A stretch of DNA of 64,000 nt from Jiangella endophytica (GTDB taxonomy: Bacteria > Actinomycetota > Actinomycetes > Jiangellales > Jiangellaceae). Within the stretch, counting starts at the first letter, position 1, and each line of letters begins with the position of its first letter. A program made the translations under genes and the position numbers. The stretch lies in contig NZ_QVAI01000007.1 of assembly GCF_003427025.1 (NCBI RefSeq), positions 186,001-250,000 of the forward strand, in the 5' to 3' direction. A model generated the notes under the pieces. The model was not told the DNA's origin. It made no database searches and saw nothing but the letters and a program-made list of their open reading frames with translations. Shown piece after piece: positions 47,819 through 64,000 of this stretch.

Positions 47819-47851
47819 GTGACACAGGGCTACCACGATATGGCGTGTCAC
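47819..47851. promoter_or_regulatory. GTGACAC/GTGTCAC inverted pair upstream of the carboxypeptidase gene
   Basis: Perfect 7-bp inverted arms at 47819-47825 and 47845-47851, 19 nt apart, 33 nt before the start of the M14 gene. Similar GTGAC palindromes occur at 52251-52309. Confidence 0.45.
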
Positions 47852-47883
47852 GTCATATAGTCCTCTTCCTCCGGGAGTGGCCC

Positions 47884-50280
47884 ATGGCACCGCAGACCCA
47901 CCGTCCCCGCCGCCGGCTGGCCGCCTTGGCAGCCCTGCCCCTGCTACTCGCAGGGCTGCCACTGGCCACCGGCGCGGAACCCGATCCCGACGATGTCGCG
48001 TCGCCCGTCTCCGCCGCCGAGACCGCCGGCCAGGCCGGTGAGATCGTCGAAGTCACGGTCGCCGACCAGGACGCCGTCATCGGCCTCATCGAGGCCGGCG
48101 CCGACGTCACCGAGTACACCCGCCCGGTCGACGGCGGCCTGCTCGTCCACGTCGTCGCGACGCCGGCCGAGCAGGCGGTGCTGCGCGACCTCGGTTACGC
48201 CGTCGGCGACGTCGTCGTCAGTGCCGCCGAGACCGCGGCCGTCGTCGCCGGGCGCGACGCCGCCGTTCGCCGGGCCGACCAGACCTTCGCCCGCCTGGCG
48301 GAGTCGCTGACACCACTGCGAGCGGAGTGGTTCGAGAGCGTCGGCGGCCAGACCTACCTGGGCGTCGAGGTGAAGAGCTCGCTCGGCGCCGACAGCAGCA
48401 CCGTCCTGACGGTGAGCTTCGGCGGCCAGAGCGTCACGATGGACCGCTTCGTCGACGCCGGCCAGTACATCTACCACACGTTCTTCGAGCCGGTCGCGGT
48501 CGACGACGTGCCGGCCGAGGTCACCGTCACCAGCAGCGGCGGCGCCTCGATCACCGTCCCCGTCGTCGAGTGGCTCGGCGACCCGCGACCGGAGCCCGGC
48601 CCGCACTACGCGACCGGCTTCGTCGACCACTACATGGACCCGACCGAGCTGTACGAGCGGATCGAGGCGCTGGCCGCCGAGTTCCCCGACCTCGCCGAGA
48701 TCATCGAGCTGCCGTACCAGACCAACGGGTACCGCCGGAAGGCGCAGGCGATGATCGGCACCGGCGCCTCGGCGTTCTACGTGACGTCGCGCGCCTGGGG
48801 CCACGAGGGCGGCAACGACCTGCGGCTGGAGACGGTGAACCCGGGCACGGCGAGCAGCCCGCTCGGCGTCACCGTCGCCGGCGCCACCGTCCGGGTGTCG
48901 CTGGGCACCGACGCGGCCGGCGCCCCGAACAGCACCGCGGCGCAGGTCGTCGCGGCCGTCAACGCCTCGCCCGCGGCGTCGGCGCTGGTGACGGCGTCGA
49001 CGTACCGCACGACCGGCGGCACCGGGCTCGCAGTGGCCGGCGGGCAGGACCTCACCGACGGGCTGGACGCACCCGCGGAGATCTCGCGCGACCCGTTCAC
49101 CGTGCGGGCGATCCGTATCGGCAAGGTCCGCGACGGGTCGCGGACCGGCGTGTTCGCCTACAGCCAGGAGCACGCCCGCGAGTGGGTGACGCCGCTGGTC
49201 GCACTGGAGACGGCGGAGCGGCTGCTGCGCAACTACGCCAACGACGCCGACACGAAGAAGCTGGTCGACGACCTCGACATCTTCATCATCCCGTCGGTGA
49301 ACCCCGACGGCAGCCACTTCTCCTTCTACGACCGCGCCGGGCAGCGGCGGAACATGACCAACCACTGCGGTCCGGAGAACTCCGACCCCGAGCGGGCCGC
49401 CACGAGCTGGGGCGTCGACCTGAACCGCAACTTCAGCGTCGGCTCCCGGTTCGACGGCTACAGCGGCGCGTCCGCGTCGTGCACCAGCGACACGTACTCC
49501 GGGCCGGCCGAACTGTCCGAGCCGGAGGCGCGCAACGAGGTGTGGCTCACCCAGGAGTACCCGAACATCGAGTTCGCGATGAACGTGCACTCCTACGGCG
49601 GCTATTTCATGTGGCCGCCCGGCGCGTACGTCTCGAACGGCCGCGTCCCGCTGCCCCGCCCGACCCTGGGTGAGGAGAACTACTTCTGGGCCGCGTCCAG
49701 CCACATCCTCTCCGCCGTGCAGGACTGGCGCGGCACGGCGGTGTGGCCCGGCCGCACCGGCCCGGTGAGCGACGTGCTCTACTCGGCGGCCGGCAACTCC
49801 GCCGACGAGCACTGGTACAACCGCGGCATCTTCGGCTGGGACTTCGAGGTCGGCGCGGACCTCTGGGACCCGGTCGAGCGGGAGTGGGACCCGCAGGGCT
49901 TCCAGCCGCCGTTCGCCGAGGGCTACGAGCAGGCCATGGAGTTCTCCAACGGCCTGATCGGGCTGCTCGAGGTGGCCCGCTCCTACGGCCGCGACAACCG
50001 GCCGCCGCGCACCACGCTCGAGCTCACCGACGAGGGCGTGACCTTCGAGTCGACCGAGCCGGTGACCATCCACTACACGCTGGACGGCAGCCGGCCGACG
50101 TACTCGTCGCCGCGGGTCGAGTCGGCCGGGCTGCGCGAACCCGCGGCGCCGATCCCGGTCGGTTCCGGGTCGACGCGGGTGCACTGGTTCTCCGTCGACG
50201 CCGCCGGCAACGTCGAGAACCGGTACGACCCGCTGCGTCCGAGCTCGAGCTACCGGAAGCAGACGGTGCGGGTCGACTGA
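47884..50280 (+). CDS. Secreted M14-family zinc carboxypeptidase with C-terminal beta domain
   Basis: A 798-residue exported peptidase. The signal peptide is RRRLAALAALPLLLAGLPLATGA (about 9-30). A prodomain-like region follows, then the catalytic domain with zinc ligands in SQEHAREW (about residue 425). It also has NPDG, the substrate arginine region VDLNRNF, the third zinc ligand in MNVHSYGGY and the catalytic glutamate in WDFEVGAD (about 656). An insert of about 100 residues (NPGTASSPLGVTVAGATVRV onwards) separates the two halves before the zinc site. The last 90 residues resemble the chitobiase C-terminal fold (IHYTLDGSRPTY). ATG 47884. Confidence 0.9.
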   Translation: MAPQTHRPRRRLAALAALPLLLAGLPLATGAEPDPDDVASPVSAAETAGQAGEIVEVTVADQDAVIGLIEAGADVTEYTRPVDGGLLVHVVATPAEQAVLRDLGYAVGDVVVSAAETAAVVAGRDAAVRRADQTFARLAESLTPLRAEWFESVGGQTYLGVEVKSSLGADSSTVLTVSFGGQSVTMDRFVDAGQYIYHTFFEPVAVDDVPAEVTVTSSGGASITVPVVEWLGDPRPEPGPHYATGFVDHYMDPTELYERIEALAAEFPDLAEIIELPYQTNGYRRKAQAMIGTGASAFYVTSRAWGHEGGNDLRLETVNPGTASSPLGVTVAGATVRVSLGTDAAGAPNSTAAQVVAAVNASPAASALVTASTYRTTGGTGLAVAGGQDLTDGLDAPAEISRDPFTVRAIRIGKVRDGSRTGVFAYSQEHAREWVTPLVALETAERLLRNYANDADTKKLVDDLDIFIIPSVNPDGSHFSFYDRAGQRRNMTNHCGPENSDPERAATSWGVDLNRNFSVGSRFDGYSGASASCTSDTYSGPAELSEPEARNEVWLTQEYPNIEFAMNVHSYGGYFMWPPGAYVSNGRVPLPRPTLGEENYFWAASSHILSAVQDWRGTAVWPGRTGPVSDVLYSAAGNSADEHWYNRGIFGWDFEVGADLWDPVEREWDPQGFQPPFAEGYEQAMEFSNGLIGLLEVARSYGRDNRPPRTTLELTDEGVTFESTEPVTIHYTLDGSRPTYSSPRVESAGLREPAAPIPVGSGSTRVHWFSVDAAGNVENRYDPLRPSSSYRKQTVRVD

Positions 50281-51020: not shown

Positions 51021-51986
51021 ATGCAGTGGGACTATGCGGTGCCACCCGACTCCCCGCCGCCGCCCGCCGCCGTGCGGACGGTCCGCGGCGCGCTGCTCAG
51101 CGGCTGGAGCAGCGTCCACATCGGCACCGGCCCGACACGCCGCTCGCGCGGCGCGGTGTACGACGGCGGGCGACTGGTGCCGGAGTCGCTGCGCGCGGGA
51201 GGGTACGACGGCGACCACGTCGTCGCCGACGACCCGGCGTACTGCGCCGATCCGGCCGTCGACCGCCTCGCCGGCCGCTGGCTCTACGGCGGACACTGGA
51301 TGAGCCGGTTCGGGCATTTCGTCACCGAGACGCTGACCAGCCTGTGGCCGGTCGGCCGCGAGGTCGACGGGCTGGTGTTCCACCGGTTCGTCCTGCCCGG
51401 CACGCCGCTGGACTATCAGACCGAGCTGGTGCGACGCAGCGGCTGGGACGTCCCGCTCCGGGTCGTGACGCGGCCGACCGAGGTCGAGGAGCTGGTGGTG
51501 CCGGACCGCCCGTACCATCCCGGCCGGCGCACCAGCGCCGAGGCCGTCGACGTCTGGGACCGCGCCGCCGTCGCCGCACGGCCGGGCCCGCCGGTCTTCC
51601 TCTCCCGGACCAGGCTGCCGAACGACCGGCGGCGCAGCGACGGCGACGAACTCGTCGACGCACTCATGGAGCGACTCGGCTTCCGCGTGCTGCACCCGCA
51701 GGAGCTGCCGATCGCCGCGCAGCTCAGCGCCGTGGCCTCGGCACCGGTCATCGCCGGCGTCTCCGGGCCGGCACTGCATCTGTCGGCGTTCGCGCCACAG
51801 GCGACCCGGGTCCTCGAGATCGGCGACATCCGTACACGCACCCGCCCGCCGGGCGACCAACGGGTCATCGACGCCGCTCGCGGCCGGCTGACCGCCTTCG
51901 TCCCCCACCTCGGCCGCAGCAACGTCCGCGACGTCGGCGCCACCATGGCGGCCGTCACCACCTTGCTGGCCCGCCAGCATCCATGA
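51021..51986 (+). CDS. GT61/DUF563-like glycosyltransferase-family protein
   Basis: A 321-residue cytoplasmic protein. The N-terminal half contains WLYGGHWMSRFGHFVTETLTSLWP, the conserved block of the GT61/capsular polysaccharide group. Later motifs are VFLSRTRLPNDRR and RVLHPQELPIAAQLSAVASA, then VIAGVSGPALHLSAFAP and RVLEIGD. No membrane segment. ATG 51021. It follows the phosphatase gene by 42 nt, so the two may share a cell-surface glycan role. Confidence 0.75.
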   Translation: MQWDYAVPPDSPPPPAAVRTVRGALLSGWSSVHIGTGPTRRSRGAVYDGGRLVPESLRAGGYDGDHVVADDPAYCADPAVDRLAGRWLYGGHWMSRFGHFVTETLTSLWPVGREVDGLVFHRFVLPGTPLDYQTELVRRSGWDVPLRVVTRPTEVEELVVPDRPYHPGRRTSAEAVDVWDRAAVAARPGPPVFLSRTRLPNDRRRSDGDELVDALMERLGFRVLHPQELPIAAQLSAVASAPVIAGVSGPALHLSAFAPQATRVLEIGDIRTRTRPPGDQRVIDAARGRLTAFVPHLGRSNVRDVGATMAAVTTLLARQHP

Positions 51987-52789: not shown

Positions 52790-53785
52790 TTACCCGGCGA
52801 GCAGCGCTACCGGCTCGCCGCTGGCGGCCGACCGGTACGCGGCCAGCGCCACGCGGGTGGCCGCCAGCCCGTCCTCGCCGGTGACGGAGGGCCGGCGCCG
52901 ATGACGGGCCGCGTCGAGGAACTCCTCGATCATGCCCTGATTGGCATCGGACCCCCACATCGGCCAGTCCAGCTGCCCAGGCGACGCGCCGTGCACGGTG
53001 AGGTGCTGGCTGAAGGCGTCGACGGCGATGGTGCCGTGCTCGCCGACCAGCTCGAGGGTGAGCCCGCCCCAGGTGGGATAGCCCTCCGGGCGGCTCCAGC
53101 TGGAGTCGATGGTGGCGAACACGCCGTCGGGATAGCCGAGCATGACCAGCCCGCCGGTCTCGACGGTGACGGTGTCGCGGTGCAGGACGCGGTTGGTCGC
53201 CGCGTACACGTCGACGGGATCGTGACCCAGGTACCAGCGCAGGACGTCGGCGAGATGCACCACATGGTCCATGAGCGCGCCGCCGCCGGCCAGCACGGGA
53301 TCGGCGAACCAGGCACCGTGCCGGGTCGGCAGCACGCTCTGGTTCGTGCCGGTGCAGGCGTAGACCTGGCCGAGTGCGCCGTCGGCGAGCAGCGCCGCGG
53401 ACTCGCGCAGCGGCGGGCTGAACCGCATGGGGAACGCCGTCATCAGCGGTACGCCGGCGCCGGCGCACACGTCGACGATCGCCCGCGCGTCGTCCTCGTT
53501 CGTGGCGAGCGGCTTCTCACAGAGCACGGCGACACCGGCCGCCGCCGCCAGCTCGACCAGACGACGGTGGTGCACCGTCTCCGAACCGACGACGACCGCG
53601 TCGACCCCCGCGTCCAGCAGCCGCTGCGGCGAGGGGAACCACGCGACGGAGTGAGCGGCCGCCCAGCGCATGCCCCGCTCGGCGTCGTCGTCGCTGACGC
53701 CGACCACCTCGGCGCCGGCGGCACGGATGTTGCCGACATAGGCGTCGACGTGCACGTGAGCGGTGGACAGGAAGCCGACCCTCAT
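52790..53785 (-). CDS. Gfo/Idh/MocA-family oxidoreductase with altered nucleotide loop
   Basis: A 331-residue NAD(P)-dependent sugar oxidoreductase. The N-terminal Rossmann start reads VGFLSTAHVHVDAYVGN, so the GxGxxG loop is replaced by a His-containing loop found in one subgroup. The lysine motif VLCEKPLATN (about 95-104) and the C-terminal beta-sheet HVVHLADVLRWYLG are present. ATG 53785 overlaps the preceding gene's stop. Last gene of the sugar-import operon; likely reduces or oxidises an imported keto-sugar. Confidence 0.88.
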   Translation of the reverse strand: MRVGFLSTAHVHVDAYVGNIRAAGAEVVGVSDDDAERGMRWAAAHSVAWFPSPQRLLDAGVDAVVVGSETVHHRRLVELAAAAGVAVLCEKPLATNEDDARAIVDVCAGAGVPLMTAFPMRFSPPLRESAALLADGALGQVYACTGTNQSVLPTRHGAWFADPVLAGGGALMDHVVHLADVLRWYLGHDPVDVYAATNRVLHRDTVTVETGGLVMLGYPDGVFATIDSSWSRPEGYPTWGGLTLELVGEHGTIAVDAFSQHLTVHGASPGQLDWPMWGSDANQGMIEEFLDAARHRRRPSVTGEDGLAATRVALAAYRSAASGEPVALLAG

Positions 53786-54786
53786 GCGGCCACCTCCACG
53801 TCGACGGGCCGGCCGGTGGCGATCGACCGCCCGACCGCGGTCGCGATCCGCACCGCGGCGAGGGCGTCCTCGGCGGTCACGACCGGCACCGCCGCGCCAC
53901 GGACGACGTCGAGGAAATGCCGCAGCTGGACGGCATAGGGCGTCTCGGCGAGCGGGCTGGACGGCAGCGGCATCTCCCCCGCCCGGACACCCGCCCGCAG
54001 GGCCGGGCGCACCGGCGCGGTGCGGTCGGAGTCGATGTCGAGCACGCCACCGGTGCCCGAGATCTCGGCCCGGGTGCGAAACGTCGGCGGAGGATGAGCC
54101 CACGATCCTTCGACATGGCTGATCGCGCCGGACTCGTGCCGCAGGATGGCGAGGACGTGGTCGGCGCGGACGTCGGGGCGCACGGCGCGGACACTGCGCG
54201 CATGCACGCTCACGACCTCGCCGGCGACCCATCGGGCGTAGTCGAGATCGTGGATCATCAGGTCGACGTGGAGTCCGCCCGAGCGCGTCTCGTCGAAGTA
54301 CCAGTCGTCCGCGGGTTTCGCCGGCGGGAACGTCGCCCGGGTCAGCCGGACCACCGCCGGTGCGCCGATCGCGCCGGCGTCGACCGCCGCCTTCGCCGCC
54401 GCGTACTCGGGGAAGAACCGCACGACGTGGGCCGGCAGCAGCGGCACGCCGGCGTCCCGGCACACCGCGATCACGTCCGCCGCCTCGTCGGGCGTTCGGG
54501 CCAGCGGCTTCTCGCAGACGACGGCGCACCCGGCGCGAGCCGCGCGGACGGTGATCTCGTGGTGCAGGTCGGTGGGAACGCAGACGTCCACGAGATCGAC
54601 CCGGCCGAGGAGGTCGTCCAGGTCGGCGCAGGCCTGCATGCCGTACTCGCGGGCGAGCCGGGCGGGCGGACCACCCGACCCGGCCACGACCGCGGTCAGC
54701 CGGGCGTCCGGACAGGTCGCCCACGCCGCCGCGTGCACCGCACCCATGAAGCCCGCCCCGACGATGCCGATGCGCGTCCGGCTCAT
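53782..54786 (-). CDS. Gfo/Idh/MocA-family oxidoreductase
   Basis: A 334-residue NAD(P)-dependent oxidoreductase. The Rossmann loop GIVGAGFMGAVHAAAW is canonical. The catalytic lysine motif is VVCEKPLART (about 93-102), and the substrate-binding GGLHVDLMIHDLDYARW holds the conserved Asp/His pair. Start ATG 54786 overlaps the permease stop, and the stop overlaps the next oxidoreductase start. Paired with a diverged paralogue, as in inositol-like or 3-keto-sugar pathways. Confidence 0.92.
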   Translation of the reverse strand: MSRTRIGIVGAGFMGAVHAAAWATCPDARLTAVVAGSGGPPARLAREYGMQACADLDDLLGRVDLVDVCVPTDLHHEITVRAARAGCAVVCEKPLARTPDEAADVIAVCRDAGVPLLPAHVVRFFPEYAAAKAAVDAGAIGAPAVVRLTRATFPPAKPADDWYFDETRSGGLHVDLMIHDLDYARWVAGEVVSVHARSVRAVRPDVRADHVLAILRHESGAISHVEGSWAHPPPTFRTRAEISGTGGVLDIDSDRTAPVRPALRAGVRAGEMPLPSSPLAETPYAVQLRHFLDVVRGAAVPVVTAEDALAAVRIATAVGRSIATGRPVDVEVAA

Positions 54787-55667
54787 TTGACCGCTCCCGA
54801 CGTCAGGCCGCGGACGAACTGCCGCGAGAAGATGATGAACAGCGCCAGCATCGGCAGCGCCGCCAGCGTCAGCACGGCGAGCACGGCGTTCCAGTCGCTG
54901 ACGAACTGCCCGAGGAACAGCTGGGTGCCCAGGGTGACCGTGCGGACGCTCTCGCCGGGCGTGAGGATCAGCGGGAACCACAGGTCGTTCCAGATCGGCA
55001 GCATCGTGTAGACGCCGATGGCGGCCAGCCCCGGCCGCACGAGCGGCAGCACCAGGAAGTACACCCGGTACTCGCTCGCGCCGTCGATGCGCGCCGCGTC
55101 CTTGAGGTCGCCGGGCACCTGTTTGAAGAACGCGGTCAGGACGAACACCGCCAGTGGCAGCCCCATGGCGGTGTACACCAGCACCAGGCCGGCCAGCGAG
55201 TTCACCAAGCCCAGGCGGACCATGAGGTCGAGGATCCCGACAGTGCCGAGCCGGATCGGGATCATGATGCCCACGGCCAGGTACAGCGACACGAACGTGA
55301 TGCCCACGAAGCGGTACTCGGCCAGGGCGAACGCGGCCATCGACCCGAGCAGCAGCACCAGGGCCACCGTGCCGACGGTGACGACGAAGCTGTTGAGGAA
55401 GTACAGCTCGAACCGGGCCCGGGTGAAGACCGTCTCGAAGCCGCCCAGATCCAGCGTCGACGGCGTCGGAAAGGCGAACGGCTCCTCGAAGATCGCCTGG
55501 CGGGACTTGAACGCGTTCATGACGATCAGCGCGATCGGACCGCATGCCACGACGACGTAGGCGAGCAGGATGACGTGCGGAACCGCCGCGCCGGCGCGCG
55601 TCCGCCACGACCGGCTCGCCCGCGTCGGCCGCGCGACACCGCGGGCCGGGGTGCTCACAGCGCTCAC
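54783..55667 (-). CDS. Carbohydrate ABC transporter permease, MalG type
   Basis: A 294-residue CUT1 permease with six helices, beginning VILLAYVVVACGPIALIVMNAF. The EAA loop is PGDLKDAARIDGASEYRVYF near residue 195. It ends FIIFSRQFVRGLTSGAVK, a standard MalG C-terminus. Starts 10 nt after the MalF-type gene. No ATPase is encoded in the operon. Confidence 0.93.
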   Translation of the reverse strand: MSAVSTPARGVARPTRASRSWRTRAGAAVPHVILLAYVVVACGPIALIVMNAFKSRQAIFEEPFAFPTPSTLDLGGFETVFTRARFELYFLNSFVVTVGTVALVLLLGSMAAFALAEYRFVGITFVSLYLAVGIMIPIRLGTVGILDLMVRLGLVNSLAGLVLVYTAMGLPLAVFVLTAFFKQVPGDLKDAARIDGASEYRVYFLVLPLVRPGLAAIGVYTMLPIWNDLWFPLILTPGESVRTVTLGTQLFLGQFVSDWNAVLAVLTLAALPMLALFIIFSRQFVRGLTSGAVK

Positions 55668-55677
55668 TCTGGGCTCC

Positions 55678-56649
55678 TCACAGTTCGTAGCTCTCGACGC
55701 GCCGCTGCCAGCCGTAGAAGTAGAGCAGCACGCCGGCCAGGATGAGCAGGAACATCATGGTGGCGACCGTGGCGCCCATCGTGCTGGAGCCCTGCTGGAG
55801 CTGGAAGCCGAAGAACGTGCGGAAGAACAACGTCCCCATGATGTCCGAGGCGAAGTCCGGTCCGGCCAGGGCGCCCTTCACGGTGTAGATCAGGTCGAAC
55901 GCGTTCATGTTGGCGACGTACGTGACGACGGAGACGATGCCGACGGTGGGCAGGATCAGTGGGAACTTGACCCGCCAGAACGTCGTCCAGCCGCCGGCGC
56001 CGTCGACCGTCGCCGCCTCGGTCAGCTCGTCGGGGATGCTGATCAGCACGGCGTAGAAGAGGATCATCGGGATGCCGATGTACTGCCACACCGACATCAG
56101 CGCGAGCGTCACCAGCGCCGTGCTCGACTGGCCGAGCAGTGGCGTGTCGACGAACCCCCACACCGGGCTGATGATGAGCTGCCAGATGAAGCCGACGATG
56201 ACCACGCTCAGCGTCGTCGGGATGAACAGCAGCGTGCGGTAGGTCCCGCGTCCCTTCAGCGTGGGGGCGGCCAGCAGCGCCGCGAGCAGCAGCCCGATCG
56301 GGTTCTGGACGAAGAAGTGCACGGCGAAGAACACCAGGTTGTTCCACACCGCGTTCCAGAACGCCTCGGACAGCAGGTCGTCGGAGAGCAGGTGGACGAA
56401 GTTGTCCAGCCCGACGAACGTGTGCACGCCGTCCCGCGGCGCGTACAGGCTCAGCCGCAGTGAGTCGAGCAGCGGGTAGACCATGAAGATCGTGTAGATC
56501 GCCGCCGCCGGCGCGATGAAGACGACCACATGGGTGCGGAACCGGCGACGCGGACGGGCGGCGGGTCCCGCCGCCACGGCCGGGCCGCTCGCCGTCGTGG
56601 CCTCGGTGTCGATCCCCTCGGGAAGCGCCGAGGTCCGCGGTCGGGTCAT
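55678..56649 (-). CDS. Carbohydrate ABC transporter permease, MalF type
   Basis: A 323-residue CUT1 permease. A Pro/Ala/Arg-rich N-terminus precedes helix one (FRTHVVVFIAPAAAIYTIFMVY). The EAA loop is PDELTEAATVDGAGGWTTFW near residue 220. ATG 56649 has an AAGGAG ribosome site. A perfect hairpin separates it from the binding-protein gene, probably tuning their ratio. Confidence 0.93.
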   Translation of the reverse strand: MTRPRTSALPEGIDTEATTASGPAVAAGPAARPRRRFRTHVVVFIAPAAAIYTIFMVYPLLDSLRLSLYAPRDGVHTFVGLDNFVHLLSDDLLSEAFWNAVWNNLVFFAVHFFVQNPIGLLLAALLAAPTLKGRGTYRTLLFIPTTLSVVIVGFIWQLIISPVWGFVDTPLLGQSSTALVTLALMSVWQYIGIPMILFYAVLISIPDELTEAATVDGAGGWTTFWRVKFPLILPTVGIVSVVTYVANMNAFDLIYTVKGALAGPDFASDIMGTLFFRTFFGFQLQQGSSTMGATVATMMFLLILAGVLLYFYGWQRRVESYEL

Positions 56650-56670
56650 GCGTTCTCCTTCGCGGAAGTG

Positions 56671-56702
56671 GGGTGTGGCGCGGCGGCCGCCGCGCCACAC
56701 CC
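56671..56702 (-). terminator. Perfect 16-bp palindrome between binding-protein and permease genes
   Basis: Arms 56671-56686 and 56687-56702 are exactly complementary with no intervening loop. Such intercistronic hairpins stabilise the binding-protein message and reduce permease expression. Confidence 0.65.
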
Positions 56703-56713
56703 GCGCCGTCGGC

Positions 56714-58030
56714 CTACTGCTGCGGTTCGTACCAGCGCTCCAGGCCCGACTGGGCCTGGGCGGCGGCGTCGGCCGGCTGCACCGTGCCGTTGACCACCTG
56801 CGCGCTGAGGTCCCACAGCTGGTTCTCCAGGTTGGGCTCGCCGCGCGAGAGGATCTGGTACGAGTTGCGGATCGTCGACTCGCAGCGGTCCCGCCAGCTG
56901 AGGAACTCCTGCGCCAGCGGATCGTCGACCTCGACGTCGTGGTCCGACATCGGGAAGAACCCCGGCAGCGCGTTGGCGTACAGGTCGGCGAACTCGGCCG
57001 TGGTCGTCCATTCCAGGAACGCCCTGGCCTCGTCCGGGTGCTCGGTGGCGGCGTTCATGCCGACGCCGATGTCGGTGTGGTCGCTGATGTAGCAGGTGTC
57101 CTGGCCCTCCGGCAGTGGCGGGGCGAACGCGCCCATCTCGAAGTCGGCCTGCTCGTTGAAGAGCGCGATCTCCCAGGAGCCGGCCGGGAACACCACACCG
57201 CGGCCGAGCGTGAACATGTTCTGCGCGTCCGGGTAGGTGAGCGACTCGTAGCCGCTGGGCAGGAACTCCGCCCAGGACGCGAGCTCGGTGAACGCCGCGA
57301 CGTAGGGCTCGTCGTCGAACCGCTCGGCGCCCTCGATCAGCGCCTGCCGGCCCTCCTCGCCGTTCCAGTAGTTCGGCCCGATGTTCTGCAGGCCCATCGT
57401 CGCCGCCTCCCACTGGTCGGCGGTGCCCATCACCAGCGGGGCGTACGAGCCGTCGGCGGCGATCTGCCCGAGCAGGTCGTGGAACTGCTCCTCCGTCTCC
57501 GGAGCCGCCAGGCCGAGCTCGTCGAACGCCTCGGTGTTGTAGAGGAAGCCGTGGATCACCGACGCCATCGGGACGCAGAACGCCTCCGCCCCGTCGTCGG
57601 TCGACCACGCGGCCCGGGCGACGTCGCCGAACGCGTCCATCCCCTCCAGGTCGGTCAGCGGCGCCAGCCGGCCCTGCTCGTAGAGGCGCAACGACACGTC
57701 GAACGGGCGACACGTGATGAGGTCGCCCGCCGTGCCCCCGGACAGCTTGGCGTCCAGCGCCGCGTCGTACTCGTCCGGCGCCGTCGGCTGGAAGGTCACC
57801 CGGATGTTCGGGTGCTGCTCGTGGAAGGCCGGCAGGATGACGTCCTCCCAGATGGCGAGGTCGTCGTTGCGCCAGCTCTCCATGACCAGCGTGACCTGGT
57901 CACCGCTGCCGCCGCCGTCATCGCCGCCGGCGGCGTCGGTCTCCTCCCGCGGATCGGCGCTCTCGCCGCAGGCGGCGAGCACCAGCAGCGCACCCACAGC
58001 CGGTGCCAGCCGGCCGAGTCGGTTCGACAT
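56714..58030 (-). CDS. Extracellular sugar-binding lipoprotein of ABC importer (family 1)
   Basis: A 438-residue lipoprotein. The signal peptide ends at lipobox VLAAC (Cys about residue 20), followed by an Asp/Gly linker. The body includes TLVMESWRNDDLAIWEDVILP and AFHEQHPNIRVTFQPTAPDE, typical of family 1 binding proteins, and Trp/Tyr residues near WTTTAEFADLY that commonly line the sugar pocket. ATG 58030 has GGGAGAA upstream. Located between the large fusion gene and the permeases. Confidence 0.93.
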   Translation of the reverse strand: MSNRLGRLAPAVGALLVLAACGESADPREETDAAGGDDGGGSGDQVTLVMESWRNDDLAIWEDVILPAFHEQHPNIRVTFQPTAPDEYDAALDAKLSGGTAGDLITCRPFDVSLRLYEQGRLAPLTDLEGMDAFGDVARAAWSTDDGAEAFCVPMASVIHGFLYNTEAFDELGLAAPETEEQFHDLLGQIAADGSYAPLVMGTADQWEAATMGLQNIGPNYWNGEEGRQALIEGAERFDDEPYVAAFTELASWAEFLPSGYESLTYPDAQNMFTLGRGVVFPAGSWEIALFNEQADFEMGAFAPPLPEGQDTCYISDHTDIGVGMNAATEHPDEARAFLEWTTTAEFADLYANALPGFFPMSDHDVEVDDPLAQEFLSWRDRCESTIRNSYQILSRGEPNLENQLWDLSAQVVNGTVQPADAAAQAQSGLERWYEPQQ

Positions 58031-58066
58031 GAGTTCTCCCATGGTGATCGAGGGCTGAACGTCCTC

Positions 58067-58124: not shown

Positions 58125-61100
58125 TCAGGACATGAACCACGACGTCCGGCTCGCTGCCGGGTGTCCGACGTCACCGCGTGCGGCGGTGCGGACGATGGCG
58201 GCGCGTTCCTTGGCGCGGAGCACGCCGTCGGCCACCAGCTGGCTGGTCACCTCCCCGACGTGCCGCACGAAGGCCCCGTGGGTGGCCCAGTCGTCCTCGT
58301 CGCGGATGAGGTCGTTGACCGTGCATCCGCTGTCGAGCACGTAGCTGGGCACGCCGCTGTCGAGCCCGCCGATCACGACGGTCTCGCGCGGATCCGGCTC
58401 CGGGCAGGCGCCCGGGTCGCCGTCGCCGATGGTGAACTCGGCCGTCTGCCAGTCCTCGGTGTGACCGGCCACGTCCACCGACCGGAACTCGACGACGTGG
58501 TCGCCGGGCTCGGTGACGGTGATCGGCTCGGTGTAGGCCACCGGCTCCTCCGCGCCGGCCATCCGGTACTGCGTCCCGGCGACCCCGGACGTGGCGTCCT
58601 GCCCGTTCAGGGTCACCGTCACCGGGCCGGTGTAGACGTCGCCGGCCTGGTCGCCGGCCAGCGACGCCGTGGTGGTGGGCGCCGTCTGGTCGATGAGGAA
58701 CTCGATCTCCTCGATCCCGGTCTCGACCGGGGGCTGACCGGTGGACGGCGTCACCTCGAATGTCGCGACCATGCCGGCCCACGTCGTGGGGTCGCCCGGG
58801 TTCGGCCGGTTCGAGTGCGGCGTGCAGTAGACGTAGTACGTGCCCACCTCTGCCGCGTCGAAGAAGAACGGGTCGTCCTCCCAGTCGTCTCCGAGCGGAC
58901 GGGATGCGAGCACGACGCCGTTCTCGTCGGTGACCACGACGTCGTGTGCGTACCCGGGGACGTACTGGAACTTGACGGTGTCGCCCTGCGCCACGCTGAA
59001 GTCGGTCTCGCTGAAACCGAACCCGCCCGAGCCGACCAGGATCTCCTTCTCGGCCGGCTCACCGCGGTCGCCGGGGACGACCGCCTTGTAGTCGATGTTG
59101 TAGACGCCGTCGGCGTCGAACAGCACCGGCTCGGTCCACGTGCGCCATTCCGTCTCGTCCGTCCGCGGCCGCCAGAACAGCTCCGCGTCCGCGTTGTTGG
59201 ACTCGAGGCCGAGCGTGACCGGCGAGACGTACCAGCCGTTGGCGCCGTCGGGCTCGGGCGGCGTCAGCGAGGCGCTGACCGTCAGCTCGTCCTCGACCTC
59301 TTTGATCCAGACGTTGCGGAACTCGACGCTCTCGCCGGCCGCCTGGCCCGACGAGTGGTTCTGCAGGCCGACGAAACCCTCCAGAGGACGGGTGCCGTCG
59401 CCGGTGAACGTGGTGACCTCGACGCCGTTGAGCGTGACGCGGTACTCCTGGCCGATCACCTCCATCTCCATCGTGTTCCACTCGCCGATGGGGTTGGTGG
59501 CCAGCGGCTCGGCCGGTGCGAAGTTGTAGATCGCGCCGGTCCGGGTCATCGGGTTGTCGGTGGCGTCGTAGATCTGCACCTCGTGGCCCTCGTTCACCGG
59601 ACGTCCCGCGTCACCCTGCGGGTCGGGGAAGCGGAGGAACACGCCGGAGTTGTCCGTCGGCGCCTGGACCCGGAAGTCGACCCGCATCACGTAGTCGGAG
59701 AACGTCTGCCGGTCGTACCAGAGCAGGCCCATGCCGCCGTACGGTTCGAGCAGCCCGCACTCGTCGATCTCGAAGCCGCCCGGACCGGCCATGGTCCAGC
59801 CGTCCAGCGATTCGCCGTCGTACAGCGGCACGAAGCCCGCCGGCGGCGTCTGCGGCTCGGGGCACTGGGTGTCACCGAGCTCCTTGATCCAGATGTCGCG
59901 GAAGAACACGTTGTCCGACACGCGGTTGTTCTGGATGCCGACGAAGCCGGAGGCCAGGTCCCGTCCGGAGCCCTCGGGATTCTCGTACTCGTTGACCAGC
60001 ACGTCGTTGATCCAGACCCGGACCATCGGGTCCTCGACCTCGATCTCCATCTCGTTCCACTCACCGGCGACGGTCGGGAACGACGTCGGCGCCTGGAAGG
60101 TGTAGATCGAGCCGGTCTTCGAACGGTCCGCGGCACCGGGCGAGCCGCCGGTGTCGTCGATCTGGATCTCGTAGCCCTGGCGCACGGCGACGTACGGGTC
60201 GTCACCGGGGTCGGGGAACCCGAAGAACACGCCCGAGTTGTCGTCCACGGCCACGGCCTTGAAGTCGAGGTGCAGCCGGTAGGACTCGAACTCCTCCTCG
60301 TGCCACAGCATCCCCAGGCCGGCCGGGTCGCCGACCGACTCCAGGGCGCACGATCCCGCCCGCTCGCCGTCCGGGACGATCGCGAACCCACCCGGACCGG
60401 ACTGGTTCCAGCCGGTCAGCGTGGCGCCGTCCCACAGCGGCCGGTACCCGGCGTCCACCGCCGGCGCAGCGCACGCGGGCTCCTCCGGGACGCACAGCGA
60501 GAAGTCGGAGAACGTCGCGGTCAGCGGGTTCTCGATGGCGGCCGGTCCGTGCGCGGCGAAGAAGCCGAACGTCGGCGACTCGTACTGCGAGATCGGCGCC
60601 GGACGGCCGACGTTGACCCAGGTCACGCCGTCGCGTGAATAGGCGGCCCGCACGTTCTCGCCGTCGCCGGTGAGCCGCAGCTGCAGCGTCAGCGGCGCGG
60701 CGGCGATGGTCGCGTTGTCGACCCCGTTCTGGTACCGGATCTCACCGTTCTGGTGGAACAGGTACTCGAACCTGCCGTCGACGGCGCTGCCGTAGGGCGG
60801 GAAGTAGGCCGCCTTGGTGAAGTTCTGATCGTCGCCGTAGATGATGAACCCGGCCTGGTCGTGGCTGGTCACACCGGCCGGCAACTGCACGGTGGCCTCG
60901 GCCACCCAGTTCCCGTCCGGCACCGGGCTCGTGATCAGGTTCTGCGCGGTGGTGTTGATGTTGCCGCTCAGGTGGTTGCTGATCATGTCGCCCTGCAGCA
61001 TGTCGATCTCGAGGGCGCCGTCGGTCTGCCGGTAGCCGTCGGTGTTCTCGCGCACGATCGTCGACCAGCGCTCGCGGTCCAGCTCGGTCCCGGCGAAGTC

Positions 61101-62663
61101 ATCGGTCACGCACTGCCCGGGACCGGTGCCGCTCACGTGGTCGACCCGGTAGAGCCCCGCGTTCGGGCTGTTCCCGAACGCGCCGCCCTCCAGCACGTAC
61201 AGCGAACCGTCCGGGCCGAACTCGCCGTCCATCAGGCCGGACCAGGTCTGGCCGGGCATGAAGTCGTCGATCGCCTCGACCTGCTCGTTCTCGTCCAGGT
61301 CGACCGTCTTCACGTGGCCACGGTGGAAGTCGAGCAGGAACCAGCGTCCGTCGTAGTGCTCGGGGAACTTGGTGTCGGACTGCAGCGCCGCGTCGTAGCG
61401 GTAGACCGGGCCGGACATCGGGCCCCCCGCGCCGGAGCCCATGTTGAGGAACGGCTCCGGGATCGGGTTGATCTCCTGTGCCGGCCAGCCGACCCACGAC
61501 TCGGGCCAGCCCGCCCAGCTGCGCGGGTAGTAGATCGTCGCCGGCGTCACCGGCGGGAGCTGGTCCAGCCCGGTGTTGTTCGGCGAGTCGTTGACCGGGC
61601 CGTTCGCGCAGTCGTAGAAGTCGCCGAGCGGCTGGTTGGTCGCGTAGTCCCACGGCCGGTACGGGTAGTTGTTCCCGATGCAGAACGGGTACCCGAAGTT
61701 GGCCGCCTCGGACGTGGCCATGTACTGGTCGAAGCCCCAGGGGCCGCGCTCGGTCCACTCGCCCAGCCGGTCCGGGCCGTAGTTGCCGATATGCAGCCGG
61801 TCGGTCGCGGGGTCGAGGGAGATGCGGAACGGGTTGCGGAACCCCATCGCGAAGATCTCCGGCCGGGTCTTCCCGCCGCCCTCCTCCTCGCCGGTGAACA
61901 GGTTGCCGTCCGGGATCGAGTAGGTGCCGTCCGGCTGCGGGGTGATCCGCAGGACCTTTCCACGCAGGTCGTTCGTGTTGCCGGAGGTCCGGCGGTCGTC
62001 GTTGTACCAGTGCGTCGGGCGGCTGTCGAGCGGCGAGTACTGCTGGTTCAGGTCCGGCGGCGACTCGTCGCCGGTGCTCAGGTACAGGTTGCCGGCGGAG
62101 TCGAAGTCGACGTCACCGGCGACGTGGCAGCAGTTCGTCTTGTTGTACGGAACCTTCAGCATGACGATCTCGGACGCGACGTCGAGCTGATCGCCCTCGA
62201 CGACGAACCGGGACAGGTAGTGCGCGTTCTCGGCGCGGGTGGTGTAGTACACGTACACCCAGCCGTTCGTCGCGAAGTCCGGGTCCAGGGCCAGGCCCAG
62301 CAGGCCGCCCTCCTGGTTCTTCGACCCTTCGAAGTCGGGGTTCTGCGGCAGCGGGTGGTCGTCGAACACGTCCAGCTCCGCCACCACGCCCACGTGCCCC
62401 ATGCCGGGGTGATACACGCGGATGACGCCGTCGCGGCTGGTCATGAAGACGCGGCCGTCGTCGGCGATGTCCATGGACATCGGCTGGGAGATGCCGGGTG
62501 CCACCAGCGTCTTCACGAACTCGTCGGCCGCGGACAGCTCCGCGAACGTGCCGTCCGGTTCGGCCGGGGCCTCGGTCGTCTGTGCGGTGGCCGGCGCGCT
62601 GACCAGGACCGACAACAGCAGCGCCAGGAATAACAGTAACGATGCGGATCGCTTGCCCAACAT
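58125..62663 (-). CDS. Secreted multidomain protein: PQQ-type sugar dehydrogenase, two DUF1080 domains, cupredoxin, FIMAH-like
   Basis: A 1512-residue exported protein. Order: signal peptide 1-28; GSDH beta-propeller about 50-515 (GGLLGLALDPDFATNGWVYV, HVAGDVDFDSAGNLYLSTGD, FAMGFRNPFRISLDP). Then a concanavalin-like domain (517-725) and two DUF1080 domains (738-928 and 942-1122), each with the D-N-S-G-V-F core. An Ig-like domain (1127-1210) precedes a cupredoxin (1208-1304) with copper ligands His1240, Cys1280, His1283 and Met1298. A second Ig-like domain (1321-1412) leads to a FIMAH-like helical end (1438-1500). DUF1080 members include 3-keto-disaccharide hydrolases and GSDH proteins oxidise sugars. 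First gene before a sugar importer. Activities are inferred. Confidence 0.88.
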   Translation of the reverse strand: MLGKRSASLLLFLALLLSVLVSAPATAQTTEAPAEPDGTFAELSAADEFVKTLVAPGISQPMSMDIADDGRVFMTSRDGVIRVYHPGMGHVGVVAELDVFDDHPLPQNPDFEGSKNQEGGLLGLALDPDFATNGWVYVYYTTRAENAHYLSRFVVEGDQLDVASEIVMLKVPYNKTNCCHVAGDVDFDSAGNLYLSTGDESPPDLNQQYSPLDSRPTHWYNDDRRTSGNTNDLRGKVLRITPQPDGTYSIPDGNLFTGEEEGGGKTRPEIFAMGFRNPFRISLDPATDRLHIGNYGPDRLGEWTERGPWGFDQYMATSEAANFGYPFCIGNNYPYRPWDYATNQPLGDFYDCANGPVNDSPNNTGLDQLPPVTPATIYYPRSWAGWPESWVGWPAQEINPIPEPFLNMGSGAGGPMSGPVYRYDAALQSDTKFPEHYDGRWFLLDFHRGHVKTVDLDENEQVEAIDDFMPGQTWSGLMDGEFGPDGSLYVLEGGAFGNSPNAGLYRVDHVSGTGPGQCVTDDFAGTELDRERWSTIVRENTDGYRQTDGALEIDMLQGDMISNHLSGNINTTAQNLITSPVPDGNWVAEATVQLPAGVTSHDQAGFIIYGDDQNFTKAAYFPPYGSAVDGRFEYLFHQNGEIRYQNGVDNATIAAAPLTLQLRLTGDGENVRAAYSRDGVTWVNVGRPAPISQYESPTFGFFAAHGPAAIENPLTATFSDFSLCVPEEPACAAPAVDAGYRPLWDGATLTGWNQSGPGGFAIVPDGERAGSCALESVGDPAGLGMLWHEEEFESYRLHLDFKAVAVDDNSGVFFGFPDPGDDPYVAVRQGYEIQIDDTGGSPGAADRSKTGSIYTFQAPTSFPTVAGEWNEMEIEVEDPMVRVWINDVLVNEYENPEGSGRDLASGFVGIQNNRVSDNVFFRDIWIKELGDTQCPEPQTPPAGFVPLYDGESLDGWTMAGPGGFEIDECGLLEPYGGMGLLWYDRQTFSDYVMRVDFRVQAPTDNSGVFLRFPDPQGDAGRPVNEGHEVQIYDATDNPMTRTGAIYNFAPAEPLATNPIGEWNTMEMEVIGQEYRVTLNGVEVTTFTGDGTRPLEGFVGLQNHSSGQAAGESVEFRNVWIKEVEDELTVSASLTPPEPDGANGWYVSPVTLGLESNNADAELFWRPRTDETEWRTWTEPVLFDADGVYNIDYKAVVPGDRGEPAEKEILVGSGGFGFSETDFSVAQGDTVKFQYVPGYAHDVVVTDENGVVLASRPLGDDWEDDPFFFDAAEVGTYYVYCTPHSNRPNPGDPTTWAGMVATFEVTPSTGQPPVETGIEEIEFLIDQTAPTTTASLAGDQAGDVYTGPVTVTLNGQDATSGVAGTQYRMAGAEEPVAYTEPITVTEPGDHVVEFRSVDVAGHTEDWQTAEFTIGDGDPGACPEPDPRETVVIGGLDSGVPSYVLDSGCTVNDLIRDEDDWATHGAFVRHVGEVTSQLVADGVLRAKERAAIVRTAARGDVGHPAASRTSWFMS

Positions 62664-62963
62664 GGCTTCCTCCGGGGGGAGACCGGTAGTGACCTGAACG
62701 AACGCCGTGTTGATCTACTGCGTTTGAACGTCGTGGGTAGCGCCCTGCAGGTGCCGGCAAGCAGAGCCTGGCTTCGGAGGGACGGAGCCGCCGCGATCGC
62801 GGTGCTCGCACGATCCAGGGCCGGGACGCCCGGTCGTCGAGGACACACGCGGCAGCCTCTGACAGCGGTCGTGGACCACCACCTAGACTTAGTAAGGAAG
62901 CTTCCCTAACTATGTGTGAATGATCACTATCTTGGTACGAGTCGTCGGTGTCAAGGGGTGGAA
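62664..62963. promoter_or_regulatory. Divergent control region with a ROK-type operator
   Basis: This 300-nt region separates the fusion gene and the ROK regulator. At 62889-62912 TTAGTAAGGAAG is followed by CTTCCCTAACTA, an AT-rich imperfect dyad of the kind bound by ROK/XylR repressors. No gene is seen here; it should hold both divergent promoters. Confidence 0.65.
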
Positions 62964-64000
62964 GTGACTCAAACCGGACATGGCAGCGGGCCCCAGGTAC
63001 TGCGGCTCATGAACTGCGCGGCGGTGCTCAGCGCCATCCGCGCCGCGGGCACGGCACGCGTGACAGACCTCATCCGAGCGACCGGCCTGTCCCGTCCCAC
63101 GGTCAGTGCCGCGGTGTCGACACTCATGGCCGACGGATGGGTCGAGGAGACCGAGGCACCCGAACCCGACCTGCCTCGCATGGGCCGGCCGGCCCGCGTT
63201 CTGCGATTCCGCGCCGACGCGCGGTACGTGCTCGGGATCGACGTCGGACCGCACAAGATCTACTGCGCCGTCGCGGATCTGAGCGGAACCGTCGTCTCTC
63301 GCGTTCGGCGTGACGTCGACGAGGCGAGCAGCCATGCCCAGTTGCTGGAGCAGGTCGAGGCCACGATGGGCCAGGCGCTCGCCGCGGTCCCCGTCGCGTC
63401 GTCCACGCTCGCCGCGGTGGGCATCGGAACGCCGGGGATCGTGGACGAGCAACGCGGCGCCGTCGTACAGGCGCCGTCGATTCCCGGCTGGAGCTCGCTG
63501 GAGCTGGGCGGCCTGTTCCGGCGCAACGTCGAGTGCTCCGTCCGCGTCGAGAACGACGTCAACCTCGCCGTCATGGCCGAGCGCTGGAACGGTGTCGGCG
63601 GCGACGCCGAGAACCTGATCCTCGTGCAGTGGGGCGCCCGGGTGGGTGCGGCCGTGCTGGTGCACGGGGAGCTGCACCGTGGTGCCCACGGAGCGGCGGG
63701 CGAGCTCGGCTTCCTCGAGCTCGAGGAAGAACCGGAGGGCGTTCAGCCCGACGGGCTCGGCCCGCTCGAGTCCGCGGCCGGAACCGCATGGATCCTGCGC
63801 CGTGCACGCAGCCTCGGTTTCGACGGCGCCGATGCGGCCGCCGTCCTCGCAGCGGCGGCCGCCGGCGACGCTCGGGCGGTGCAGGCGGTGGACGAGGCCT
63901 GCGCCCGGCTGTCACGGGGCCTCGCCTCCTTCGTGTCCGCGATCGACCCGGAACTGGTCATCATCGGAGGCAGCGTCGCCCTCGCCGGCGACGCGATGCT
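62964..64000 (+). CDS. ROK-family transcriptional regulator (partial at right edge)
   Basis: GTG start at 62964 with AAGGGG upstream; at least 345 residues, cut by the window edge close to its normal end. The N-terminal winged helix reads TDLIRATGLSRPTVSAAVSTL (about 32-52). The ROK domain has the sugar-kinase-like VLGIDVGPHKIYCAVADLSG and VGIGTPGIVDEQRG, then VENDVNLAVMAERW, and ends in LVIIGGSVALAGDAM. The zinc-cysteine cluster usual in ROK proteins is not evident in the expected CxCxxxxC form. Divergent from the large fusion gene, which it probably controls by sensing a sugar. Confidence 0.9.
   Translation, partial: MTQTGHGSGPQVLRLMNCAAVLSAIRAAGTARVTDLIRATGLSRPTVSAAVSTLMADGWVEETEAPEPDLPRMGRPARVLRFRADARYVLGIDVGPHKIYCAVADLSGTVVSRVRRDVDEASSHAQLLEQVEATMGQALAAVPVASSTLAAVGIGTPGIVDEQRGAVVQAPSIPGWSSLELGGLFRRNVECSVRVENDVNLAVMAERWNGVGGDAENLILVQWGARVGAAVLVHGELHRGAHGAAGELGFLELEEEPEGVQPDGLGPLESAAGTAWILRRARSLGFDGADAAAVLAAAAAGDARAVQAVDEACARLSRGLASFVSAIDPELVIIGGSVALAGDAM

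Follow-up and report, generated by a model that had tools for sequence, protein, structure and literature searches.

We have identified in Jiangella endophytica a gene that joins a GSDH-family propeller, two DUF1080 domains and a type-1 copper (cupredoxin) domain in a single polypeptide of 1512 amino acids with a predicted secretion signal. It lies in a 64,000-nucleotide stretch of DNA (the window; contig NZ_QVAI01000007.1, positions 186,001 to 250,000). The fusion gene, its domain anatomy and the linkage of its parts are solid, and in the material searched the combination of GSDH, cupredoxin and DUF1080 was seen only in this ortholog group. Judged by its sequence, the protein is likely an oxidizing enzyme. 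We tentatively propose, at a confidence that falls short of probable, that it may be a secreted oxidoreductase-glycosidase comparable to the periplasmic LacABC and DUF1080 proteins of Caulobacter, but in one chain. The propeller would oxidize a glycoside, most likely with pyrroloquinoline quinone (PQQ) that is scavenged in Jiangella, and electrons would exit via the type-1 copper domain tethered to it. The second DUF1080 domain (copy 2), which is intact, would cleave the keto-glycoside, with copy 1 and a DUF1349 domain mainly binding glycan. A neighboring ABC importer would take up the keto-sugar, and Gfo/Idh/MocA enzymes would reduce it inside the cell. In this scheme we infer PQQ use, oxidation, the position oxidized, copper loading, the electron path, cleavage, import and reduction.

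A first-pass annotation of this DNA had described a secreted chain with GSDH, two DUF1080 domains and a type-1 copper domain in that order, and the open reading frame (ORF), Pfam matches and Foldseek searches confirmed it. All the domains that it named are present, although it overlooked the DUF1349 domain, an OmpL47-type Ig-like domain and a C-terminal tail. From the N-terminus, where a Sec-type signal peptide was recognized by eye, the complete order is GSDH, DUF1349, DUF1080 copy 1, copy 2, Ig-like, cupredoxin, OmpL47-type Ig-like and tail. Sixty genomes were searched for the fusion, 22 of them of Jiangellaceae (J. endophytica included). Because 13 of these 22 contain a full-length match in one frame, the gene is not an artifact; eight have none, and in G007 the match falls into two pieces and contains a stop. 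The two pieces in that genome overlap (G007:C80:60121-64667, L020 and L083), and either a sequencing error or a broken gene would account for them.

Two exact peptide patterns were used to scan for related loci, and at least 44 were found, eight with the copper part. The named loci come from Jiangella species, Haloactinopolyspora alba, an Actinomycetes metagenome-assembled genome (MAG) and Saccharomonospora saliphila. Among the matches listed for 298 genomes of the order to which S. saliphila belongs, only S. saliphila matched via the copper part; other genomes of the order matched via the DUF1080 and Ig-like parts. A phylum-wide search with the copper segment and its Ig-like flanks matched 50 of 396 genomes, mainly through Ig-like repeats, and the weak matches that reach the copper part (including G160 and G166; E 1.8e-4 to 6.7e-4) are in short frames. 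With a profile of the copper domain only, J. endophytica scored 1.5e-73 and five other genomes 2.3e-4 to 5.4e-4.

Twelve orthologs were aligned with the J. endophytica protein, the broken G007 copy being left out. The fraction of invariant positions across these 13 sequences is 0.68 for GSDH (319/468 residues), 0.64 for copy 1, 0.60 for the copper domain, 0.59 for copy 2, 0.57 for the first Ig-like domain, 0.53 for DUF1349, 0.37 for the OmpL47-type domain and 0.27 for the tail. Pairwise ratios of nonsynonymous to synonymous substitution rates (dN/dS) were calculated for the J. endophytica gene against seven of the 12 other orthologs. These are 0.12-0.31 for the copper domain, 0.11-0.25 for GSDH, 0.10-0.25 for copy 1, 0.17-0.43 for copy 2 and 0.28-0.57 for the OmpL47-type domain, and one of the seven values for the first Ig-like domain is 1.10. 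The copper domain is under purifying selection, with dN/dS similar to that of the enzyme domains.

The copper domain, a cupredoxin of plastocyanin fold, is nested within an Ig-like domain. Its PF00127 match (residues 1208-1284, E 7.8e-4, 20.2 bits) is narrowly below the cut-off of 21.2, and the copper domain of the S. saliphila ortholog is above it (21.5 bits). Foldseek, queried with the predicted model of the domain (mean pLDDT 74.5), returned plastocyanins first (E 2e-6, query TM-score 0.55-0.6). The copper ligands H1240, C1280, H1283 and M1298, which the first-pass annotation had numbered correctly, are invariant in all 13 aligned orthologs and kept in S. saliphila. The loop between His1283 and Met1298 is long, at 14 residues, and across nine sequences a Trp within it and a Gly before the Met do not vary; the corresponding spacing in plastocyanin is four residues. 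Three loci of the same genome (L143, L144 and L145) encode the same Ig-Ig-tail cassette without a copper domain, and alignment with them shows that the copper domain is inserted ahead of the final strand of the first Ig-like domain. PF22888, which is relevant to the FIMAH-like appearance of the tail, was matched in five of the 12 paralogs described below.

For the propeller, the PF07995 match (residues 59-337, E 8.8e-31) is above the cut-off and covers positions 2-232 of the 332 in the profile. The predicted model is weak (mean pLDDT 60.8, with 181 of 476 residues below 50); in a Foldseek search with it, soluble glucose dehydrogenase (sGDH) of Acinetobacter was the first match (E 2.3e-19). His180, which we take, partly from the familiar motif, to be the equivalent of the sGDH catalytic base His144, is invariant in 13/13 orthologs, as are Arg276, Asn277, Gly296 and Pro297. 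The fusion shares its propeller family, together with the base His, the Arg-Asn pair and Gly-Pro, with Acinetobacter sGDH and with the soluble aldose sugar dehydrogenases (Asd) of structures 3das, 2ism and 3a9g (PF07995). Compared with these soluble enzymes, the fusion has insertions, no equivalent of sGDH Arg408, and six further domains plus the tail. The Pro of the calcium-site Gly-Pro is not universal, being Asp in L037, a classical enzyme of the same genome. The sGDH numbering and residue roles used here follow the portion of PMC6881810 available to us.

The genome has 15 GSDH matches in all, and it encodes 12 large GSDH proteins besides the fusion. Actinobacterial large GSDH proteins belong to the same GSDH clade as the fusion, and some have DUF1080. 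Among the 13 large proteins of this genome, the fusion included, the base His and the Arg are kept in 13/13 and the following Asn in 12/13. DUF1080 occurs in four of the other 12, directly preceded by DUF1349 in three of those four. ThuA (8/12), PKD (11/12) and CBM6 matches (9/12), all absent from the fusion, are common among them, and at E 0.01 Pfam showed no copper domain in any of the 12 scanned. Five large GSDH proteins are encoded within some 40 kb (G000:C78:244001-289900, L040-L042). Vicinal cysteines, Cys178-Cys179, directly precede His180 (62124-62132), and six of the 13 large proteins have such a pair; 12 of the 13 retain a second pair, Cys328 and Cys352. A vicinal disulfide near PQQ is known from methanol dehydrogenase.

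PF06439 was matched twice (whole-protein E 6e-76), and PF07081 (DUF1349) was matched at residues 545-723 (E 1e-7) with 32.3 bits against a cut-off of 32.4; the S. saliphila ortholog reaches 41.6 bits. Copy 2 keeps the family-conserved polar residues Glu, Gln, Trp-Asn, Asn, Gln, His and Arg. At the position equivalent to His1103, 56 family domains from the fetched loci have His in 47, Glu in six, and Asp, Tyr and Asn in one each; the single Asn is in copy 1 of S. saliphila. The DUF1080 domains of other large proteins in the genome all have His (4/4).

In S. saliphila, the large gene (L087:7778-11761) aligns with the whole fusion except copy 2 (0/185 residues aligned). Copy 2 is found there as its own gene on the opposite strand (L087:5206-6204), encoding a signal peptide, a DUF1080 domain and a tail, with a ROK gene between the two. 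This separate DUF1080 domain is 74% identical to copy 2 and 48% identical to copy 1. A secreted copy 2 beside the unit of GSDH, copy 1 and cupredoxin links it to that unit even where the two are not fused. Since the ends of the two S. saliphila proteins are near-identical (92% between the tails), duplication of the fused gene followed by reciprocal loss is suggested by the sequences. Simple loss of copy 2 was rejected, as a separate gene for it is present nearby.

Gene order was compared in seven fetched Jiangellaceae loci, of which L084 is cut off early. The other six, with enough flank, all have ROK, fusion, solute-binding protein, two permeases and two Gfo/Idh/MocA genes in this order. A ROK gene adjoins in 8/8 loci, divergently in seven and on the same strand in S. 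saliphila, where the large gene adjoins another importer type (Peripla_BP_4, ABC ATPase, BPD_transp_2). Elsewhere in the window, a gene for an M14 zinc carboxypeptidase with a chitobiase-type C-terminal domain (47845-50277) adjoins a glycosyltransferase-61 gene (51021-51983). Feature coordinates are listed in Table 1.

Table 1. Features of the fusion gene and its neighbors, in window coordinates
Feature	Coordinates	Strand	Basis
Whole gene, secreted multidomain protein, 1512 aa (stop codon included)	58125..62663	-	ORF, ATG start, Pfam
Signal peptide and linker, residues 1-37	62553..62663	-	Read by eye; lipobox Cys absent
GSDH-family propeller, residues 45-512	61128..62531	-	PF07995, Foldseek
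His180, equivalent of sGDH catalytic base His144	62124..62126	-	Alignments
Arg276-Asn277, equivalent of sGDH Arg228-Asn229	61833..61838	-	Alignments
Gly296-Pro297, equivalent of sGDH Ca site Gly247-Pro248	61773..61778	-	Alignments
Met478, replacing the second Arg of Arg-x-Arg (taken as sGDH Arg408)	61230..61232	-	Weak HMMER segment against 2ism
DUF1349 concanavalin-like (lectin-like) domain, residues 518-733	60465..61112	-	PF07081
DUF1080 copy 1, residues 736-930, Asn913 for the family His	59874..60458	-	PF06439
DUF1080 copy 2, residues 939-1123, His1103 kept	59295..59849	-	PF06439 at 943-1121
First Ig-like domain, residues 1126-1204, split by the cupredoxin, with its final strand resuming near 1318	59052..59288	-	Alignment with L143, L144, L145
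Cupredoxin (type-1 copper) domain, residues 1205-1312	58728..59051	-	PF00127, Foldseek
OmpL47-type Ig-like domain, residues 1318-1415	58419..58712	-	NF047446 at 1344-1412, E 2.1e-21
C-terminal tail, resembling FIMAH by eye, itself without a Pfam match	58128..58418	-	Similar ends in L143-L145
ROK-family regulator, divergent, runs off the window	62916..63998	+	PF00480, E 4.2e-38
Sugar ABC importer, solute-binding protein	56714..58042	-	PF01547, E 2.8e-26
Sugar ABC importer, permease A	55678..56700	-	PF00528, E 2.5e-13
Sugar ABC importer, permease B	54783..55667	-	PF00528, E 3.8e-6
Gfo/Idh/MocA oxidoreductase 1, start approximate	53782..54774	-	PF01408, PF22725
Gfo/Idh/MocA oxidoreductase 2 (Gfo2), start approximate	52790..53779	-	PF01408, PF02894; below every NCBIfam cut-off

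Several observations weigh against oxidation and cleavage of a glycoside by this protein, beginning with the propeller itself. Met478 stands at the position of a C-terminal Arg of characterized relatives (sGDH Arg408). HMMER sets this stretch, in a weak segment, against Arg-Leu-Arg of 2ism; five relatives with solved structures show the motif, and we take the Arg-x-Arg of Asd to be sGDH 406-408. In the column of Arg408, Arg is absent from all 13 large GSDH proteins that the genome encodes. The motif's first Arg is still present in four of the 13, as well as in S. saliphila and L019, and L037 retains both. Arg408 is named among the PQQ-binding arginines in the accessible part of PMC6881789, and Arg406 and Arg408 are described as lining a pocket beside the glucose site in that of PMC1781467. 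The PQQ-type dehydrogenase named in the first-pass annotation keeps His180, Arg276-Asn277 and Gly296-Pro297, but not the C-terminal Arg. The region of the Lys377-type contact of sGDH (to the C-7 carboxylate of PQQ) aligns poorly and has low pLDDT in the model, and a profile-profile comparison with L037 covers columns 20-291 of 476. In the open-licence literature searched, no assigned reaction was found for the large Actinomycetes GSDH clade without an Arg408 equivalent.

The supply of PQQ is a further difficulty, and the pqq genes implied by a PQQ enzyme were present in one host only. pqqC was absent from all 22 genomes searched, 14 of them Jiangellaceae, and 11 of those 14 hold the fusion gene (one broken). 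The search matched no control genome, and the same model scored above the cut-off in 8 of 296 sampled genomes of the phylum. PqqE matches were obtained in 20 of 22 genomes, none over the cut-off; since all 14 controls match likewise, none over, these are no evidence of PQQ synthesis in Jiangella. S. saliphila has pqqC, pqqD and pqqE side by side, each above the equivalog cut-off, which against the phylum background is suggestive, from one genome only. With this one host carrying PQQ genes, Jiangella would have to scavenge the cofactor.

These findings bear on the alternative that the protein is a binding scaffold, with a propeller that, as in Hedgehog-interacting protein (HHIP), has no PQQ. 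DUF1080 and DUF1349 would then bind glycan, sugar would be presented to the importer, and the copper domain would have another role. The lack of an Arg408 equivalent across the large GSDH proteins, the lack of pqqC in Jiangellaceae and the lack of the family His in copy 1 all suit it, as do the HHIP structures that appear from place 13 in the fold search; however, sGDH and some Asd-type structures rank above them. Moreover, GSDH, with base His, Arg, Asn, Gly and Pro all in place, is the most conserved domain of the protein; the copper ligands are under constraint as well, and pqqCDE is present in S. saliphila. We regard a scaffold as unlikely.

With respect to cleavage, the first-pass statement that the core is kept in each DUF1080 domain is correct for copy 2. 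In copy 1, Asn913 replaces the family His while the remaining conserved polar residues are kept, and this copy is probably degenerate. Chemistry raises a further objection: according to the part of PMC6881810 seen, characterized sGDHs oxidize C1 to give lactones, so a GSDH that produces a 3-keto substrate would be new chemistry. The DUF1080 protein THTE_1561 is reported to act as an ordinary endo-glucanase (PMC10881899, available portion), and no paper on DUF1080 together with PQQ was found in the open-licence literature. Both activities would agree with the reverse order of events, in which DUF1080 cleaves a glycan (keto or not), GSDH oxidizes the freed reducing end at C1, and electrons pass to copper. 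No new GSDH reaction would be required, yet the cofactor doubts hold equally. The conserved Gfo/Idh/MocA genes suit keto-sugars better than aldonic acids, and no sugar-acid gene was present among the neighboring ORFs scanned, which cover part of the cluster surroundings. This order seems to us rather unlikely, if somewhat less so than the scaffold.

The path of the electrons is also open to objection. About 690 residues separate the end of GSDH from the start of the copper domain, which sits in the C-terminal cassette. AA10 lytic polysaccharide monooxygenase (LPMO), the only terminal electron acceptor sought, has no match in the J. endophytica genome (1 of 14 control genomes matches). A role for the copper domain in feeding an LPMO, as for the fungal CcPDH, was rejected for want of that match. 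The copper domain might instead serve copper storage or scavenging, or another partner, having been inserted into a surface cassette. Its distance from GSDH and its nesting in a cassette that three other proteins carry without it are as expected of such a domain. It is, however, absent from the 12 other large GSDH proteins and kept in 13 intact orthologs and S. saliphila, and the genome has no AA10 LPMO as an alternative partner; a copper domain that does not serve GSDH is quite improbable in our estimation. The last objection concerns the neighborhood, as the Gfo/Idh/MocA gene of S. saliphila lies on the opposite strand some 5 kb downstream, and its product is 27% identical to Gfo2.

The first-pass annotation had envisaged oxidation of a glycoside, electron transfer to a tethered copper domain and splitting of the keto-product outside the cell. 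The evidence supports that mechanism in part. In its favor are the order of the domains, the copper ligands, the secretion signal, purifying selection on the copper domain, linkage of the parts and the retained GSDH residues; Met478, the missing pqqC, the C1 chemistry of characterized sGDHs and copy 1 without the family His are against it. It is possible that 3-keto-glycosides are made and split in one chain. In its most specific form, a GSDH without the Arg408 contact would oxidize a ring hydroxyl, probably at C3, and pass electrons to its own blue copper, and copy 2 (in cis in Jiangella, in trans in Saccharomonospora) would split the keto-glycoside for import; taken as a whole, this version is improbable, to about the degree of the scaffold.

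Oxidative breakdown of glycans by a 3-keto route has been described with NAD enzymes of the Gfo/Idh/MocA family. It has also been described with membrane-bound LacABC, in the accessible text of PMC9007349. There, the LacABC lactose 3-dehydrogenase of Caulobacter and a DUF1080 protein (CCNA_01705) are proposed to act in series outside the cytoplasm, with a transporter and a sugar reductase nearby, comparable to the importer and Gfo/Idh/MocA genes at the fusion. LacABC and DUF1080 are the closest functional parallel to the fusion, although they are separate proteins, the dehydrogenase is membrane-bound and not a GSDH, and no cupredoxin is mentioned in that text. CcPDH (AA12, AA8 cytochrome b and CBM1) is likewise secreted and has a GSDH fold, a built-in carrier and a carbohydrate-binding part. 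Its carrier is a cytochrome b, however, it has no DUF1080, and AA12 has low homology to the bacterial enzymes (PMC6881789, same portion). A protein of a Verrucomicrobia MAG (L136, 355-3885) likewise combines a cupredoxin with GSDH in a single polypeptide (in the order cupredoxin, Big_7, GSDH, four CHRD), but its cupredoxin is N-terminal and it has CHRD repeats and no DUF1080. Each of the planctomycete loci L130 and L133 encodes a single polypeptide with GDSL lipase, DUF7133, HEAT, copper and cytochrome c parts. Fusion to a carrier is therefore not unique, given CcPDH, L136, L130 and L133. Titles and abstract openings of open-licence papers yielded no fusion protein like the one described here.

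If the proposed oxidation and cleavage in one secreted chain is correct, an enzyme exported together with its own electron carrier would illustrate how Gram-positive bacteria could run the 3-keto route beyond their membrane. The fused arrangement in Jiangella and the split arrangement in Saccharomonospora would provide a ready test system.

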